Made by a program: the position numbers and the translations under genes
The notes under the pieces: generated by a model
Seen by the model: only the letters and a program-made list of their open reading frames with translations
Databases searched by the model: none
Told to the model about the DNA's origin: nothing
In this document: one piece after another, positions 23,169-30,361 of the stretch
Position numbering within the stretch: the stretch's first letter is position 1
Layout: the number at the start of each line of letters is the position of its first letter
NCBI GenBank assembly: GCA_945885515.1
Contig: CAMCZA010000002.1
Coordinates: 1-52,558, forward strand
Direction: 5' to 3'
Length of the DNA: 52,558 bases
Origin: Ferrithrix thermotolerans DSM 19514
GTDB taxonomy: Bacteria; Actinomycetota; Acidimicrobiia; Acidimicrobiales; Ilumatobacteraceae

Positions 23169-25124
23169 TCAGCGCACCGGACCAAGCTCGGCTGGACGAG
23201 GCCCAACACAGCCGGCGTCTCCTGCGGGAGGACGAATATTTAATTCATTGATTAATACCTGACCAATTCGAGCAAAGACTGGAGCAGCAGCCCTACCACC
23301 GAAACGATCTTTGGCCGTTGGATCTGGTTCATCAATTGACACCAAAACTGTCATTTGCGGATTGCCTGCTGGCAGAAAACCGGCAAAAGATGCAAAGTAC
23401 GCGAATGTTCCATCATCTGCCTCGTACTTGCCGTTGCTCTGAAGTTTGTAAGCGGTTCCAGTTTTTCCTGCGACGCTCATTCCAGAAAGTTGGGCAAGTG
23501 TTCCGGTTCCGTGACAGACGACATCCGTCATCATTCCGGCCATTGTCTTTGCTGTTGCTTCGCTCACGACCTGGCGCTTCTCGGACGCCGGCAAATTCTT
23601 CGAAACACCGTTTGCGTCAAGTGTTGACATTATTAGTTTCGGCGCAACATAAACACCTTTATTCGCAACGGTGTTCACTGCAGAGATCAGTTGCAAACCA
23701 CTGGCTGTATAGCCGTAGCCATAGGCAAAAGTAATCTTTTCAGTACCTTGCCAATCTTTTGCTGGCTTGAGTACTCCACGCGACTCATTTGGGTAGTTCA
23801 ACGGAGTCTTTACACCAAATCCGAACATCTTTAGATAATCATGATTTATTTCATTACTCAAAGTTCGTGAAATTATGACGGTTCCATTATTTGACGAGTC
23901 AACAAAAATTTTGCGAACGGTCATATCTTCTATCGGGTGAACATAGCCGTCAGAAACTTTGTACTCCCACTGGGTTCCCTTGTCATAGGTCTCTTGATAT
24001 GGGACCGTAAAAGTCGAGGCGGCATCTATTTTGCCTTCATTGATTGCTGCAGCAATGCTGAAAACTTTTGCCACGGACCCAGGCTCGTGAGATTCAATCG
24101 TTGAAAAGTTTCCAGACTCACTTGAATAACTTCCATCGTTGTTACGACGAATATTTGACATCGCATATATTTCACCCGTGTCCGTATCCATCACGATCAC
24201 CGAACCACCGCGAGCGCCAACAAATAAGACCTGCTGATAGAGAATCGAGTCAACTTGAAACTGGATTGTCCGGTCAATTGAAGTGACCAGTCTTTCTCCG
24301 GCAATTGCCTCGGTTACATCACTTGCACCTGCCGCCATTGACTTTCCACTTGCATTTACTTCGCGCGCAATTCGACCATCTTTGCCCGCAAGTAATTCTT
24401 GATACTGAAGTTCAAGACCAGAGATTCCAAGTCCATCAATATCTGTGCGCCCGACAAGCGCCAGCAACCCACTGCTTGTAAGAGCACGACCCGATTCGCG
24501 ATACGACGAAACACCTTTAAGACCGAGGGCGACAATAGTGTCAGCAATTTTTTGATCTGCCTGACGAGCCAAATACACAAAACTTGAAGACTTGTCTCGC
24601 ATCTTGATCGCCAATTCAAGTTCACTTTCTGGGGATAGGCGCATGATTCCTGCGACTACCCTGGCAACACCTTCTGGATCAATAACCGACCGAGGATCAG
24701 CAAAAACAGTGCGTGTCGGAATTGGCAGCGCTAGTTCACGACCATTTCTGTCAAGGATTGAGCCCCGCTCTGCGCGCAATGTTTGCACGCGGGTGCGTTG
24801 AGAGATACTCGCATCGCGATAATCACTTGCCCACTTAGTTTGCAACAGTGCAACGCGAACTCCGAGCCCAAACAACATTAGAGCTACGACCGAAAACATT
24901 ATTCGTGTGCGTTTACGCATCACTCCGGCCTTCAGGTCTTTAGTGAACGCATCGTAACCTTTGCCGATTAGCGAATTGGATCGATACGAAACCCCAGCGA
25001 TGTTCTCGCGGCGAGTATTCATTGCTCGAGCCTCGCGCTTGGAAACTCGACCGCCACTTGTAACTTTTTTGCGCTTGGATGCGCTGACACTATTTACTCG
25101 ACTCGCGCGAAGCGATTGGCTCAT
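23169..25124 (-). CDS. ftsI: Peptidoglycan D,D-transpeptidase FtsI / PBP3 (class B PBP)
   Basis: 651 aa; EPGSVAKVFS (SxxK), SSNNGT (SxN), VAGKTGTAYK (KTG); single N-terminal TM. Confidence 0.94.
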   Translation of the reverse strand: MSQSLRASRVNSVSASKRKKVTSGGRVSKREARAMNTRRENIAGVSYRSNSLIGKGYDAFTKDLKAGVMRKRTRIMFSVVALMLFGLGVRVALLQTKWASDYRDASISQRTRVQTLRAERGSILDRNGRELALPIPTRTVFADPRSVIDPEGVARVVAGIMRLSPESELELAIKMRDKSSSFVYLARQADQKIADTIVALGLKGVSSYRESGRALTSSGLLALVGRTDIDGLGISGLELQYQELLAGKDGRIAREVNASGKSMAAGASDVTEAIAGERLVTSIDRTIQFQVDSILYQQVLFVGARGGSVIVMDTDTGEIYAMSNIRRNNDGSYSSESGNFSTIESHEPGSVAKVFSIAAAINEGKIDAASTFTVPYQETYDKGTQWEYKVSDGYVHPIEDMTVRKIFVDSSNNGTVIISRTLSNEINHDYLKMFGFGVKTPLNYPNESRGVLKPAKDWQGTEKITFAYGYGYTASGLQLISAVNTVANKGVYVAPKLIMSTLDANGVSKNLPASEKRQVVSEATAKTMAGMMTDVVCHGTGTLAQLSGMSVAGKTGTAYKLQSNGKYEADDGTFAYFASFAGFLPAGNPQMTVLVSIDEPDPTAKDRFGGRAAAPVFARIGQVLINELNIRPPAGDAGCVGPRPAELGPVR

Positions 25125-25828
25125 GGTGCCGAACCAGTGGTCTCTAAAATTAAGTCATCTGATGTTTTTGGCTTGGCGATTGCCTCGTCCATTTCGCCAG
25201 TTGAAGCAAGCACCATTGTCACAACTTCAGCCGGCACATCTTCAAATTTTGCACCAGAACCCGGCCACATTCCCAAGATGATTGCTTGCGCCCTTAAATA
25301 ATCTGGCGCCCGCAACTCTGCTCTTTGCTGTCGCAATTCGTTGTAGTGCTGGCGGGCAAGTCGCACATCGGTGCTAACTCTGTCCAAGCGAAGTTGTTGT
25401 TCGGCAATAACTGTTTGAAAAATCACGATGAATGCAAGCACCGATGTGAGCACAACTATCAGCGTCGTTGCTTTTGAAAACTTTGATTTCGTAATTGGCC
25501 TGACTACCCGAAGTTCAGGCGGATTAGCTTTGCGTCGCGTGGCTTGTCGAGCGACTGGTCGCGTAACTTGTTGAGCGACTGGTCGCGTAACTGGTCGAGC
25601 AACTTGTTGCGGTACTGGTCGCGTAACTTGACGAGCAACTTGACGAGTTACTGGTCGAGTAACTGACTGGGTACCACCACGAGCGACTTGTCGAGCAACT
25701 GGTCGAGCGACTGGTCTCGTAACTTGTCGAGTGACTGGCTGCGTATTATTGCGCTTTCTCGCCCGATGCACTGGCTCTGTTCGTAGGTGACGAACAGGTG
25801 GCTGGCGATGCTCCATTGCCGCCGACAT
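25121..25828 (-). CDS. FtsL-like divisome bitopic protein with tetrapeptide-repeat cytoplasmic tail
   Basis: Positioned between rsmH and ftsI; TM FSKATTLIVVLTSVLAFIVIFQTVIA followed by a coiled-coil-like segment; start taken as MSAAMEHR after the rsmH stop. Confidence 0.75.
   Translation of the reverse strand: MSAAMEHRQPPVRHLRTEPVHRARKRNNTQPVTRQVTRPVARPVARQVARGGTQSVTRPVTRQVARQVTRPVPQQVARPVTRPVAQQVTRPVARQATRRKANPPELRVVRPITKSKFSKATTLIVVLTSVLAFIVIFQTVIAEQQLRLDRVSTDVRLARQHYNELRQQRAELRAPDYLRAQAIILGMWPGSGAKFEDVPAEVVTMVLASTGEMDEAIAKPKTSDDLILETTGSAP
25540..25745 (-). repeat. Degenerate tandem 12-bp repeat encoding [VA][TA]R[PQ] tetrapeptides in ftsL
   Basis: Plus strand shows repeated gcaacttgtcga/gtaactggtcgc-type units; protein PVTRQVTRPVARPVARQVAR...RPVARQATRR. 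Confidence 0.9.
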
Positions 25829-25829
25829 T

Positions 25830-26828
25830 TCAGCCCACCGCCCCGGCAAAAGTTTTTTCAATGACCCGCAGTCGTGCAGATTTTGCACGCCGATTTTCAG
25901 ACTGTTCTATATCGCTTGGATGCTGAGAAATTCGCACCCGCCGACCTCGTCGCTGACCTAGTTGAGACTCATGCACAAACGGTGATCCAATTTTTGGTTC
26001 ATCGGTGTCATTTTCCGCAGATCGAAATACTTGTTTAACTATTCGATTTTCTCCAGAGTGGTAAGTCAAAACAGCGACGCGCCCACCGACGTTGGTGGCG
26101 TCTATTGCGGTTTGCAACGCCTGCGCAAGAATCTCGAGTTCTTTATTTACTTCAATACGAATTGCTTGAAATGTCCGCTTTGCAGGGTGCCCTCCGGTTC
26201 TGCGCGCTGGCGCAGGAATTGCCGAGACAATAATTTCTGCCAAGTGAATAGTCGTATTAATAGGTCGAGCAGCGACAATTGCGCGGGCAATGCGACGCGC
26301 AAATCGCTCATCGGCATTGCTGGCGATCAAATGTGCCAACTCCGACTCTTCGTAAGTATTTACCACATCAGCAGCGCTTACTTCACCGCGCTGATCCATT
26401 CGCATGTCAAGTGGTCCATCATTGCGATACGAAAATCCGCGCTCTGCAATATCTAATTGCGGAGAAGAAACACCTAGATCAAAAAGCGCGCCAGAGATTT
26501 GATCTATTGATAACTCTGCTAATACTTGGTTTAGAGAATCGAAACGAGCCCTTCGAATTGTCAGGCGACCATGAACCGAAGGGTCTTCGACGATCATTTT
26601 TTGTGCATTGGCAACTGCAAACGCATCTTGATCTAACCCCAAAATTTGTAGCGAAGGATGGGCTTTCAAAATTGCTTTTGAGTGTCCGCCAAGACCAAAT
26701 GTTGCATCAACAACAACACCAGCAGGAACCGTGGCGAAACATTCAACAATCTCGTCGACCATCACGGGGTCGTGTGAATTAGAAATCGAATCAGATGATT
26801 TGGACTGTGAGTTTTTTTGACTTGTCAT
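25830..26828 (-). CDS. rsmH: 16S rRNA (cytosine(1402)-N4)-methyltransferase
   Basis: HDPVMVDEIVE, VDATFGLGGHSKAIL, FDLGVSSPQLDIAERGFSYRNDGPLDMRMD, AVLTYHSGENRIVKQVF. Confidence 0.95.
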   Translation of the reverse strand: MTSQKNSQSKSSDSISNSHDPVMVDEIVECFATVPAGVVVDATFGLGGHSKAILKAHPSLQILGLDQDAFAVANAQKMIVEDPSVHGRLTIRRARFDSLNQVLAELSIDQISGALFDLGVSSPQLDIAERGFSYRNDGPLDMRMDQRGEVSAADVVNTYEESELAHLIASNADERFARRIARAIVAARPINTTIHLAEIIVSAIPAPARRTGGHPAKRTFQAIRIEVNKELEILAQALQTAIDATNVGGRVAVLTYHSGENRIVKQVFRSAENDTDEPKIGSPFVHESQLGQRRGRRVRISQHPSDIEQSENRRAKSARLRVIEKTFAGAVG

Positions 26829-26850
26829 GAAAGTTGTGCAACTCACAACT

Positions 26851-27006
26851 CGTCACTGCTGTTGCCTCGCTTATCAGCAGCCCCCCGATCAACGATGCTC
26901 TCGGGATTTCTCCCCGAAATACGAGATAGTAGCGAGCGGAGTTGAGTGCTATCCATCTTGTTGATCGGAAGACTGCTGATAAGCGAAACTCATGCAACTT
27001 GTGACG
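26851..27006 (-). ncRNA. Structured 5' leader RNA of rsmH; candidate cis-regulatory element, possibly the mraW RNA motif
   Basis: Nested perfect arms: cgtcac/gtgacg, gttgc/gcaac, cgcttatcagcag/ctgctgataagcg (13 bp), ccgatcaac/gttgatcgg (9 bp), gatg/catc. Confidence 0.7.
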
Positions 27007-27045
27007 GTTGCGAAAAGAGTTTGTTGCTCGACCTCCCTTCTTCTT

Positions 27046-27459
27046 TTACTCGGTGCCAGCTAGTTCTTGTGCACCCGAATCGCTGATTCGCTGATGGCGC
27101 TGTGGATCCCAAATTTCAACTCTGTCAAACGAACCGCTGACGATGACTCTTGAGTTCAGTTCAAGTCCTGCATATGCGCGCAACTTTTCGTCAACATTGA
27201 TGCGGCCTTGCGCATCGACTGTTACTTCAATCATGTTCGATGCCAATGCGCGTTGTTGCTTGCGATCCATTTCGCCGCGACGAACTTTTTCCATCGCATC
27301 GTTGGCGACTGATAAAAAAGCCTCGGTGGTTAAGACATCAACGCACTTATCGCGACCAAGGGCGAGATAGCACTTTGGCTCAAGTCTTGGACGAAAAGCG
27401 GCCGGCAGAGCGATGCGACCTTTAGGGTCCAATTGACGCTCATGTGCACCTACAAACAC
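27046..27459 (-). CDS. mraZ: Transcriptional regulator MraZ (GTG start)
   Basis: VFVGAHERQLDPKGRIALPAAFRP...YLALGRDKCVDVLT; GGAGG ribosome-binding site immediately upstream of GTG at 27459; the upstream part of the listed ORF overlaps the operator. Confidence 0.93.
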   Translation of the reverse strand: MFVGAHERQLDPKGRIALPAAFRPRLEPKCYLALGRDKCVDVLTTEAFLSVANDAMEKVRRGEMDRKQQRALASNMIEVTVDAQGRINVDEKLRAYAGLELNSRVIVSGSFDRVEIWDPQRHQRISDSGAQELAGTE

Positions 27460-27535
27460 TGTTCCTCCGCTTTGTCCCAAAACCCATTCACTGACGGGAT
27501 TTGGAGCTCCCTCCGCTTCCCGATCGTTACTATAA

Positions 27536-27580
27536 CCCACTTTGCCCCACCAATGCACACTTTCCCCCACTATTCCCCAC
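27536..27580 (-). promoter_or_regulatory. MraZ-type operator: five 10-bp-phased units, four matching GTGGG and one degenerate
   Basis: Minus strand GTGGGGAATA GTGGGGGAAA GTGTGCATTG GTGGGGCAAA GTGGG, next to a possible -10 TATAGT (27534-27529). Confidence 0.8.
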
Positions 27581-27683
27581 AAATTTTTGGCATGGCAAAT
27601 CCACTAAAAAGTGCTGTTTTGAAAGCTATTTAGGTTCTTTTAACGGATTAGTTGCGAGCGAAAAACGAGCGCCCGCAAAAGTG

Positions 27684-28364
27684 CTAGCGCAATTCGGCTA
27701 GCGAGATTAGCGAGTCGGCGATCTGACTTAGACCCCCACAAACCCCTGTTTTTATTGACTTAAGGCCGCTATCGATGGCTGGGTTCGCCTGACTGAGCCG
27801 AGCAAAATCTAGGTACTTTTCGTAGACATCACTCGACCACCGACTATGCAACATGCATTGGAATCTTGCCATCTCACGAGTTCTACGCTGAGAAATTCCA
27901 ATTAATTTTTCACCGTGAAGAGTCACTTCGCCAGGACCAAGACCAGCAAAACAAACTAATTCAGAAACCTCATTGCGCTCAAGCCCACCACGATGAACGA
28001 TCAGCTGATCGCGCGCGGCAACATCATTTTCGGCCAGCGCGTCCGCCCACAATTCGCCAACCCACCACATTGCTTGTCCGACATCGTCACTCCACAACAC
28101 ATCGTTGCGTTCAATCACAATGTCAATCCACAGGTGCTCGTTTGTGCCGAGATAGACAACCCCGCCGCCACTGCGCCGCCGCACAACACTTACTCCATCG
28201 AGGTCGCAAGCTTGTTGATTGATAATTTCAAATGATTGTTTTGAACCCAACACGATTGCAGATTCGGTGATTGACGAGCGCCAAATTGATCTCTCTGCCG
28301 GCAATTCTCGAGAATGCACATTCTCTGGCGAGTCGTGCAGATGATGAACTTTCCAAGAACTCAT
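27684..28364 (-). CDS. Lipoate--protein ligase A-like (BPL/LPL family) protein
   Basis: 226 aa; VVRRRSGGGVVYLGTNEHLWIDIVI and LHGEKLIGISQRRTR. Confidence 0.8.
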   Translation of the reverse strand: MSSWKVHHLHDSPENVHSRELPAERSIWRSSITESAIVLGSKQSFEIINQQACDLDGVSVVRRRSGGGVVYLGTNEHLWIDIVIERNDVLWSDDVGQAMWWVGELWADALAENDVAARDQLIVHRGGLERNEVSELVCFAGLGPGEVTLHGEKLIGISQRRTREMARFQCMLHSRWSSDVYEKYLDFARLSQANPAIDSGLKSIKTGVCGGLSQIADSLISLAELR

Positions 28365-28385
28365 CGAATATTTTTCAGACGCAAT

Positions 28386-28883
28386 CTAAGACGCGTAGGC
28401 GAGATACTGTTTCCATTCTTCTGGAATTCTGCCAACAGAAACCGTGATCCACGCAAGTTCGCGCGGAGTGTGCGGTTTATTTGCCAACAACATACCGGCT
28501 TCGTCAGGGGTGCGATCTCGCTTCTTTAAATTGCAGCCTCGACACGCTGCCGTGACATTCTCCCAAATATGCATTCCACCACGGGACCGCGGCATTACAT
28601 GATCAATGCTGTCGGCCAACGCACCACAATACTGACACCGATGATTATCGCGGGCGAATATTGCGCGCCTCGACATTGCCGTTCGTCGATGATAAGGAAC
28701 TTTCACGACATACCGCAAGCGAATTACTAATGGACCTGGCATCACAAAAGTTTCGGCACGAATTTGAGTTCCATCATCTTCGACAATTTCAGCTTTATCC
28801 GAAAGAATCAGACCAATCGCACGACGAGCAGAGACAATTGAAAGCGGTTCAAATGTCGCATTGAGTACGAGTGCGCTTCTCAT
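28386..28883 (-). CDS. HNH endonuclease family protein
   Basis: 165 aa; ALVLNATFEPLSIVSARRAIGLIL, RDNHRCQYCG, DHVMPRSRGGMHIWENVTAACRGCNLKK. Confidence 0.9.
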   Translation of the reverse strand: MRSALVLNATFEPLSIVSARRAIGLILSDKAEIVEDDGTQIRAETFVMPGPLVIRLRYVVKVPYHRRTAMSRRAIFARDNHRCQYCGALADSIDHVMPRSRGGMHIWENVTAACRGCNLKKRDRTPDEAGMLLANKPHTPRELAWITVSVGRIPEEWKQYLAYAS

Positions 28884-29137
28884 CTGAAATCTTTCACCCA
28901 GGTCAGATAACTCAACACATCGGCTACTTCAACGACATGCTGATGATCACCGTATTGAGTGATTAAACGAAAGCGCAGGTAGTCGCGTGTGGGTATCGGC
29001 AGAAATGGCGAAGTCGCCCACCATCGACGCGGAATCAAACGAAACAATTGTCTGACTGCGGTGAGCCATAGATCGGGGCGCCGCAAGATGGCAGTAAAAA
29101 TCGACGCACCAGACTGCAGGCTCGATAAAACCTTCAT
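28880..29137 (-). CDS. Small conserved-looking hypothetical protein
   Basis: 85 aa ORF with 4-bp overlap to the HNH gene; RRWWATSPFLPIPTRDYLRFRLITQYG. Confidence 0.65.
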   Translation of the reverse strand: MKVLSSLQSGASIFTAILRRPDLWLTAVRQLFRLIPRRWWATSPFLPIPTRDYLRFRLITQYGDHQHVVEVADVLSYLTWVKDFR

Positions 29138-29140
29138 GGA

Positions 29141-30361
29141 TCAGTTGGGTTTTGGCTCTTTTGGCAATCCAAGAACCATCTCACCAATTATGTTGCGTTG
29201 AACTTGAGACGAACCAGCATAAATCGTGCCGGCTCGCGCATTTAAAAATGTCATCGCCCAACTCATTGAGCTATTTTCGGCGCCACCGTCATCTGTCTGA
29301 AACGACGAAATTGGTTTGCGTCCAACGGGCACTAGCCCTTCTGCACCAAGAATGTCCATTGCAAGTTCGGTAACTACCTTGTGGTACTCGCTCCAGTACA
29401 ACTTCGAAATTGCACCGTCTGGCCCCGGATGATGACCTGCAACAAATTTTGTCAGAGTTCGCAGACCGAGATATTTCATGATTTGAACTCGGCAATAGCA
29501 GTCGCTGAGGCGCTGACGAATTCTTGGATCGTTGGCAACACCACGATCTTTGGCGAGCGCTACGAGTCGATCAAACTCTCCTTGAAATCGAATTGACAAT
29601 GTCGCCGCTGCTTCTCCGCGCTCATAGCCAAGCAACGACATCGCAACTGCCCAACCGTTATTGAGTCCGCCAACCACATTGTCTTTTGGACAAGTGACAT
29701 CCGTGTAGAAAATTTCATTGAATTCGCTCTCACCTGAGAGCATTTTAATTGGACGAATTTCAATACCTGGCTGACGCATATCAACCAATAAAAACGAAAT
29801 ACCTTTGTGCTTTGGTGCATCTGGATTTGTACGAGCCAGGGTAAAAATGTGAGTTGCATACTGACCGGCTGAAGTCCAAATTTTTTGGCCATTCAAAATA
29901 AACTGATCACCGTCAAGTGTCGCTTTGAGACCGACGTTGCCGAGATCTGAACCAGCGTTCGGCTCGCTGTATCCCTGACACCAAGTATCTTGACCAGAAA
30001 TAATTCGTGGCAAGTAATATCTTTTCTGCTCTTCGGTGCCCCAGACCAACAAAGTATTGCCGAGCATTTGTATACCAAAAGTGTCATTGAACGAACCTGT
30101 TGGTACACCAGCATGTGCAAATTCTTCGGCAACAATGACCTGCTCCAACGCCGAGAGTCCGCCCCCACCGTATTCAACCGGCCAACCCGGTGCAAGATAT
30201 GGACTTGACGACAAAGTTTGTCGCCACTGCTTCATAAACTCATCAACCGCTTTACCTTCAAGCGAGCCAATGCCCTTCCATGTTGCGGGAAGTTTCTCCG
30301 CCAAAAATGCTTGAACTTTTTCTCGATATTCCTCGGCCTGTGGCTCGTACATCGGTTTCAT
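29141..30361 (-). CDS. Acyl-CoA dehydrogenase
   Basis: MKPMYEPQAEEYREKVQAFL; YSEPNAGSDLG, KIWTSAGQYA, LLGYERG, YAGSSQVQRNIIGEMVLGLPKE. Confidence 0.92.
   Translation of the reverse strand: MKPMYEPQAEEYREKVQAFLAEKLPATWKGIGSLEGKAVDEFMKQWRQTLSSSPYLAPGWPVEYGGGGLSALEQVIVAEEFAHAGVPTGSFNDTFGIQMLGNTLLVWGTEEQKRYYLPRIISGQDTWCQGYSEPNAGSDLGNVGLKATLDGDQFILNGQKIWTSAGQYATHIFTLARTNPDAPKHKGISFLLVDMRQPGIEIRPIKMLSGESEFNEIFYTDVTCPKDNVVGGLNNGWAVAMSLLGYERGEAAATLSIRFQGEFDRLVALAKDRGVANDPRIRQRLSDCYCRVQIMKYLGLRTLTKFVAGHHPGPDGAISKLYWSEYHKVVTELAMDILGAEGLVPVGRKPISSFQTDDGGAENSSMSWAMTFLNARAGTIYAGSSQVQRNIIGEMVLGLPKEPKPN

Follow-up and report, generated by a model that had tools for sequence, protein, structure and literature searches.

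A candidate class-specific leader RNA between mraZ and rsmH that holds the rsmH start region of many relatives within its main stem

The gap between mraZ and rsmH in the window (the whole 52,558-nt stretch of DNA analyzed here) contains an element that is almost certainly a functional structured RNA, judging from the way its sequence has changed among related genomes. Its conserved core consists of a long stem, P1, with two hairpins, A and B, at the apex (Table 1). The evolutionary evidence for the core as a candidate cis-regulatory RNA is strong, and in much of the family its anatomy offers a clear basis for translational control. The explanation we favor, with reservations, is that the element is a class-specific, cis-acting leader RNA that would control translation of rsmH and thereby the start of the division/peptidoglycan operon; a trans-acting partner for this RNA is a well-motivated guess. 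A literature search found no earlier description of the leader RNA, and it is apparently a class-wide structured RNA that is absent from Rfam and undescribed.

Locus and fold

In the cell-wall operon of the window, rsmH is the first gene after mraZ and is followed on its 3′ side by a penicillin-binding protein gene (Pfam PF00905). Alignment of starts identifies ATG 26828 as the rsmH start common to the genus, with GTG 26846 as an alternative.

Table 1 Features of the mraZ–rsmH region of the window
Feature	Positions	Strand	Description
rsmH (mraW)	25830..26828	−	16S rRNA C1402 N4-methyltransferase; Pfam PF01795, E 1.4e-97
P1, 3′ arm	26864..26893	−	GGGGGG at 26886-26881; AUA at 26874-26872 where relatives have the rsmH AUG
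Conserved core of leader RNA	26864..26991	−	P1 plus hairpins A and B; covariance model R1, 136.5 bits
Element as first drawn	26851..27006	−	156 nt; outermost arms cgtcac/gtgacg genus-confined and variable
Hairpin B	26897..26923	−	UUUCGGGGAGAAAUCCCGAGA; missing from the short form of other orders
Hairpin A	26924..26958	−	Fold; two-sided changes in 6/9 pairs
Hairpin A, near-invariant loop segment	26933..26942	−	ACUCCGCUCG in the window, consensus ACUCCGCCCG; resembles 16S 1396-1405
P1, 5′ arm	26960..26989	−	In relatives, complementary to the rsmH Shine–Dalgarno (SD) stretch and start codon
SD-like GGGAGGU	27031..27037	−	Directly after the mraZ stop; genus alignment, anti-SD duplex energy
mraZ	27046..27459	−	Gene upstream of rsmH; Pfam PF02381

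The element as first drawn folds at −80.2 kcal/mol, compared with −42.6 ± 3.8 kcal/mol for dinucleotide shuffles (z −9.9, none of 200 as good), and the entire 217-nt gap folds at −100.1 kcal/mol (z −9.9). All of the arms named in a preliminary description of this DNA are present in the minus-strand sequence between the mraZ stop (27046) and the rsmH ATG (26828), but the fold arranges them differently. In what had been drawn as a 4×4 internal loop, UCUU faces GGGG and forms three U·G pairs and one C-G pair with it, so that P1 is continuous up to the junction and forms a near-continuous helix of ~28 bp between two operon genes. The innermost gatg/catc arm does not form. The tcggg/cccga hairpin assigned to the apex is real and corresponds to hairpin B, but the apex is a two-hairpin junction rather than a single hairpin, and hairpin A (26958-26924), the more conserved of the two, had been missed. 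Finally, the outer cgtcac/gtgacg arm exists in the sequence but is seen only in the genus, where it varies.

Covariation and strand

Relatives were read after a protein search with RsmH, which yielded 26 loci of the genus (the window's own included) and four more of the family. The same core occupies the mraZ–rsmH gap of every one of these loci except L036, whose gap is short and has no core, and conservation is higher in the core than in the sequence on either side. RNAalifold analysis of 23 sequences returned 48 pairs, 15 of them with compensatory changes. We then scored a 44-pair structure on A3, an alignment of 64 order-level sequences, in which 92.1% of cells are paired and 429 cells carry two-sided changes, whereas shuffled alignments average 78.2% paired cells, 25.1 pairs with two-sided changes and 122 such cells (0/500 as high). 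When partners are slid by one to three columns, pairing falls to 33–46%, and the covariation score of 0.486 for A3 compares with 0.218 after shuffling and at most 0.152 after sliding. Two-sided changes are present in 37 of the 44 pairs on 64 sequences, whereas the preliminary description had taken a lack of covariation or of arm conservation in close relatives as refuting. P1 contributes heavily, with compensatory changes in 26 of its 28 pairs in the same sequences.

Because a DNA inverted repeat would covary too, the strand was tested. Among P1 cells, U·G or G·U combinations number 173 and A·C or C·A combinations 30, an excess that fits an element acting as an RNA of the rsmH sense strand. 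In the window, model R1 scores 136.5 bits on the sense strand versus 39.1 bits on the antisense strand, and the sense strand folds 13 kcal/mol better than the antisense. A DNA inverted repeat or mobile hairpin element with no RNA function would account for a near-perfect inverted repeat and for the score that the model also gives on the reverse strand. The element occurs at only one place in the genome, however, and its occupation of the same locus throughout a class and the wobble asymmetry in favor of sense RNA also speak against such a repeat, which we consider scarcely credible; a mobile or repeated element was rejected on the basis of the single copy.

Distribution and relation to the mraW RNA

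Model R1 matches 230 of 397 sampled genomes of the order and 186 of 296 sampled genomes of the class. In a sample of 297 genomes of the phylum, it matches 12, all of them class members, and outside its class the element therefore occurs essentially nowhere else in the phylum at this depth of sampling. The class is evidently Acidimicrobiia, since the named carriers are labeled Ilumatobacteraceae and Acidimicrobiales. In all 17 genomes for which both an RNA match and an rsmH match are listed (G000, G029, G030, G032, G036, G041, G042, G045, G046, G047, G048, G049, G050, G051, G053, G058 and G060), the RNA and rsmH share a strand, with the RNA no more than ~170 nt upstream of the rsmH segment that aligned. 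In other orders of the class, the element often takes a short form of 100–105 nt, which keeps hairpin A and has lost hairpin B along with much of the junction. Two divergent loci that the model missed (L269 and L271) have kept both CUCCGCCC and a P1-arm start codon. Counting against a class-specific leader that controls rsmH, the RNA is missing from several genera of the same family. In six of these without a model match (L261-L266), the sequence preceding rsmH shows no such loop, and most of the six leave almost no gap between mraZ and rsmH.

The same intergenic position is occupied elsewhere by the mraW RNA (RF01746), a motif listed for Actinomycetales (PMC2864571), and the element had initially been thought either a divergent member of that family or a new architecture. 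The Rfam covariance model finds no match in 26829-27045 or 24000-30000 of the window at E values up to 10, nor in 16 loci drawn from across the class, even at E 10. In a survey of the phylum, 13 matches exceed the RF01746 gathering score of 50 bits, all of them outside the window's class, and nothing exceeds this cut-off in any genome shown for that class. In the reverse direction, our models R1 and R2 give only weak hits to mraW RNAs, mostly on the wrong strand or off target and none convincing. Failure of RF01746 to match, and of R1 and R2 to recover mraW RNAs above noise, led us to reject membership in the mraW family as unsupported, leaving a new architecture as the better of the two options.

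There are nevertheless real parallels. Both RNAs sit between mraZ and mraW/rsmH, both present a C-rich apical loop on a long stem, and their phylogenetic distributions are complementary; moreover, one Frankia locus gives a weak sense-strand R2 score of 17.2 bits (E 0.043). A distant family relationship would explain these features, but the loops differ in sequence (ACUUCCCC in the mraW RNA, ACUCCGCCCG in this element), as do the junctions, with a single apical hairpin in the mraW RNA and two here. Together with the model searches, these differences make it unlikely that the element is a far-flung member of the mraW family. In the mraW loci that we read, a possible rsmH start codon lies downstream of the RNA. 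On present comparisons, the element is apparently a separate family at the mraW-RNA locus, and the two RNAs may be distant homologues or analogues. One locus, L053, carries an mraW-type RNA with two tandem apical hairpins, each with a GACGUACUUCCCCGACGCC loop. Our literature search found no function for the mraW RNA, which was reported in 2010.

The rsmH start region within P1

In 21 examined loci, the 3′ arm of P1 contains every start codon available to the rsmH frame ahead of the conserved HxPVM motif, except that in one locus the codon falls at the end of P1. Nearly always, the codon is an AUG or GUG 11 nt from the end of the core, and a G-rich SD stretch precedes it. The short form has the same arrangement, with GGGGGG and ATG or GTG at nearly constant spacing in the P1 3′ arm of 28/28 sequences. 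With the SD stretch and start codon inside the 3′ arm, the 5′ arm becomes an anti-SD plus anti-start strand. Predicted folds of 42 members give a mean unpaired probability of 0.002 for the SD positions, and opening the region from SD to AUG costs a mean of 33.5 kcal/mol in these members, compared with 13.2 kcal/mol when the 5′ part is shuffled. Placement of the rsmH SD and start codon in P1 points to translational control, and at the level of the family we consider control through the rsmH start region likely.

Two qualifications apply. First, of the 85 loci whose frame could be read, 64, including those of the window's genus, also offer start codons beyond P1. Second, in this genus the embedded start position reads AUA (26874-26872) rather than AUG, rsmH begins 35 nt on the 3′ side of the core and, in the window, the rsmH ATG is mostly unpaired in the fold (0.65). 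Simple occlusion is therefore inapplicable to the window; the embedded codon of its genus decayed from AUG to AUA, and control there is less clear.

Covariation, fixed position and a buried ribosome-binding site in many relatives together give strong support to a conserved, structured rsmH-leader RNA whose role, as put forward in the preliminary description, is probably cis-regulatory. The companion proposal, that the element leads the whole operon, fails because the element sits on the 3′ side of mraZ. Attenuation by an intrinsic terminator was rejected, as a search of the minus strand from 26600 to 27800 found no terminator-like site (a hairpin followed by a T run). A promoter search returned a sole promoter-like match, upstream of mraZ and at chance level. 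Alternatively, the element could act in processing or stability, with RNase III cutting P1 to separate the mraZ part of the transcript from the rsmH part. A near-continuous helix of this length between two operon genes suits such a role, but cleavage would explain neither the near-invariant loop of hairpin A nor why the 3′ arm houses SD and AUG, and we judge it rather improbable.

The hairpin A loop and its resemblance to 16S rRNA

Among the 64 long forms, columns C54, C55, C57 and C59 of A3 never vary and their neighbors vary in only one or two sequences, and ACUCCGCCCGC is invariant in all 28 aligned short forms. A coding explanation for this conservation was rejected because the loop is found, depending on the locus, in each of the three frames with respect to rsmH. 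A kissing interaction between loop A (CUCC) and hairpin B (GGAG) was likewise rejected as the reason, as the short form loses hairpin B and keeps the loop. The same short form bears on whether a pocket formed by hairpins A and B might sense a small molecule, for example SAM or a cell-wall precursor, and gate the rsmH start region as a riboswitch. The near-invariant loop, the GGGGAGAAAUCCC hairpin, the junction architecture and a start region within the stem would all be in keeping with a riboswitch. The invariant nucleotides, however, fall in one exposed loop of 14–16 nt rather than in a compact junction, and the short form has lost hairpin B as well as a large part of the junction, so that small-molecule sensing is a poor prospect.

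RsmH methylates C1402 of 16S rRNA (PMC5053481). The consensus loop ACUCCGCCCG is identical to 16S 1396-1405 at 9 of 10 nt, which shuffled loops equal or exceed with a probability of 0.0013. The 16S rRNA of the order reads ACACCGCCCGUC at the RsmH site, as read by a short pattern in 11 of 40 genomes but not in the window's own, incomplete assembly. The counterpart of C1402 in the loop, C 26936 in the window, is C in 64/64 long and 28/28 short forms. Compared with one whole 16S gene of the order, the best ungapped match of the loop is CCGCCCG at 1399-1405. Under a stricter mismatch penalty, shuffled loops equal the match in 5% of cases for the order consensus and 8% for the genus consensus, and the window's own loop does not score above chance against 16S; in the window and the clades closest to it, CUC stands in place of CCC in mid-motif. 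The likeness to 16S is confined to this one loop. We regard the resemblance to the RsmH target as suggestive of feedback through rRNA mimicry, and thus as a lead.

A model for control of rsmH translation

P1 is very stable, and the rsmH site would thus be closed by default, so something must open P1. In our model, P1 would close the site unless the RNA were held open or captured ahead of P1 closure, with a factor that reads the loop of hairpin A deciding between the open and closed states. RsmH itself would be the likeliest such factor, given that 9 of the 10 nt around its 16S target recur in the loop, and the outcome would be negative feedback as in ribosomal-protein leaders.

Our confidence in RsmH as the ligand is nonetheless tentative. 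First, the window's clade has CUC where 16S has CCC, which may argue against recognition of the loop as a target. Second, the substrate of Escherichia coli RsmH is the 30S subunit and not naked 16S rRNA (PMC5053481), and METTL15, the human RsmH homologue, binds the RNA backbone without sequence specificity (PMC10828496); both observations would count against RsmH as a reader of one loop. Third, the mraW RNA, at the same locus, has a loop unlike the 16S target, and the scores under the stricter penalty given above also weigh against RsmH. The more specific proposal, that the loop is a decoy of the 16S decoding-site strand at 1396-1405 through which RsmH regulates itself, and entry into the division/cell-wall operon, by binding, and perhaps methylating, the C1402-equivalent cytidine, is possible but somewhat doubtful.

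More broadly, the proposed mode of action has two precedents. If the model is correct, the element would work much as do ribosomal-protein leaders with rRNA mimicry, in which an RNA extends over the start region and the gene product recognizes an rRNA site copied there. In this case, by contrast, the candidate product is an rRNA methyltransferase that acts on late 30S particles, and the likeness is limited to one loop. In the leaders of Erm methyltransferases, the start region of an rRNA methyltransferase gene is hidden in leader hairpins. In many relatives, the element shares with them a concealed start region of an rRNA methyltransferase gene but, unlike them, it shows no evident leader peptide, its loop being kept in all three frames.

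The presence of an rRNA methyltransferase gene at the head of a division/cell-wall operon is the setting of the puzzle. The element adds a second, independently recognizable RNA at the mraW-RNA locus, in another class. With an rsmH start in its stem and a loop resembling RsmH's own target, it lends itself to direct tests of a simple feedback model. If RsmH does bind the loop as a decoy, the expression of cell-wall genes would be linked to ribosome maturation throughout a bacterial class. Even apart from feedback, a class-wide structured RNA missing from Rfam would be added.

Flanking sequence

The SD-like GGGAGGU (27031-27037) is kept across the genus and has no nearby start codon. Many relatives also have a strong SD-like motif in the 5′ flank of the element (AAAGGAG in others). 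SD-like strength in this flank reaches −11 kcal/mol or better in 34% of cases versus 14% of shuffles, a moderate excess. The motif after the mraZ stop might serve rsmH by bridging the folded element. In 43 of 50 order-level loci (L061-L226), the rsmH frame stays open from one end of the core to the other, as against 27 and 26 loci for the remaining two frames, and ribosomes may therefore enter the element from upstream in some species.

Between rsmH and the penicillin-binding protein gene, in the position of ftsL, an ORF at 25121-25888 on the minus strand contains a highly repetitive VTRQVARPV-like stretch; a Pfam search with this ORF gave no match, and its repeats produce spurious weak Rfam matches. 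Finally, GTGGG(G) motifs are repeated at 27520-27582 on the minus strand, upstream of mraZ, and resemble the direct repeats bound by MraZ.
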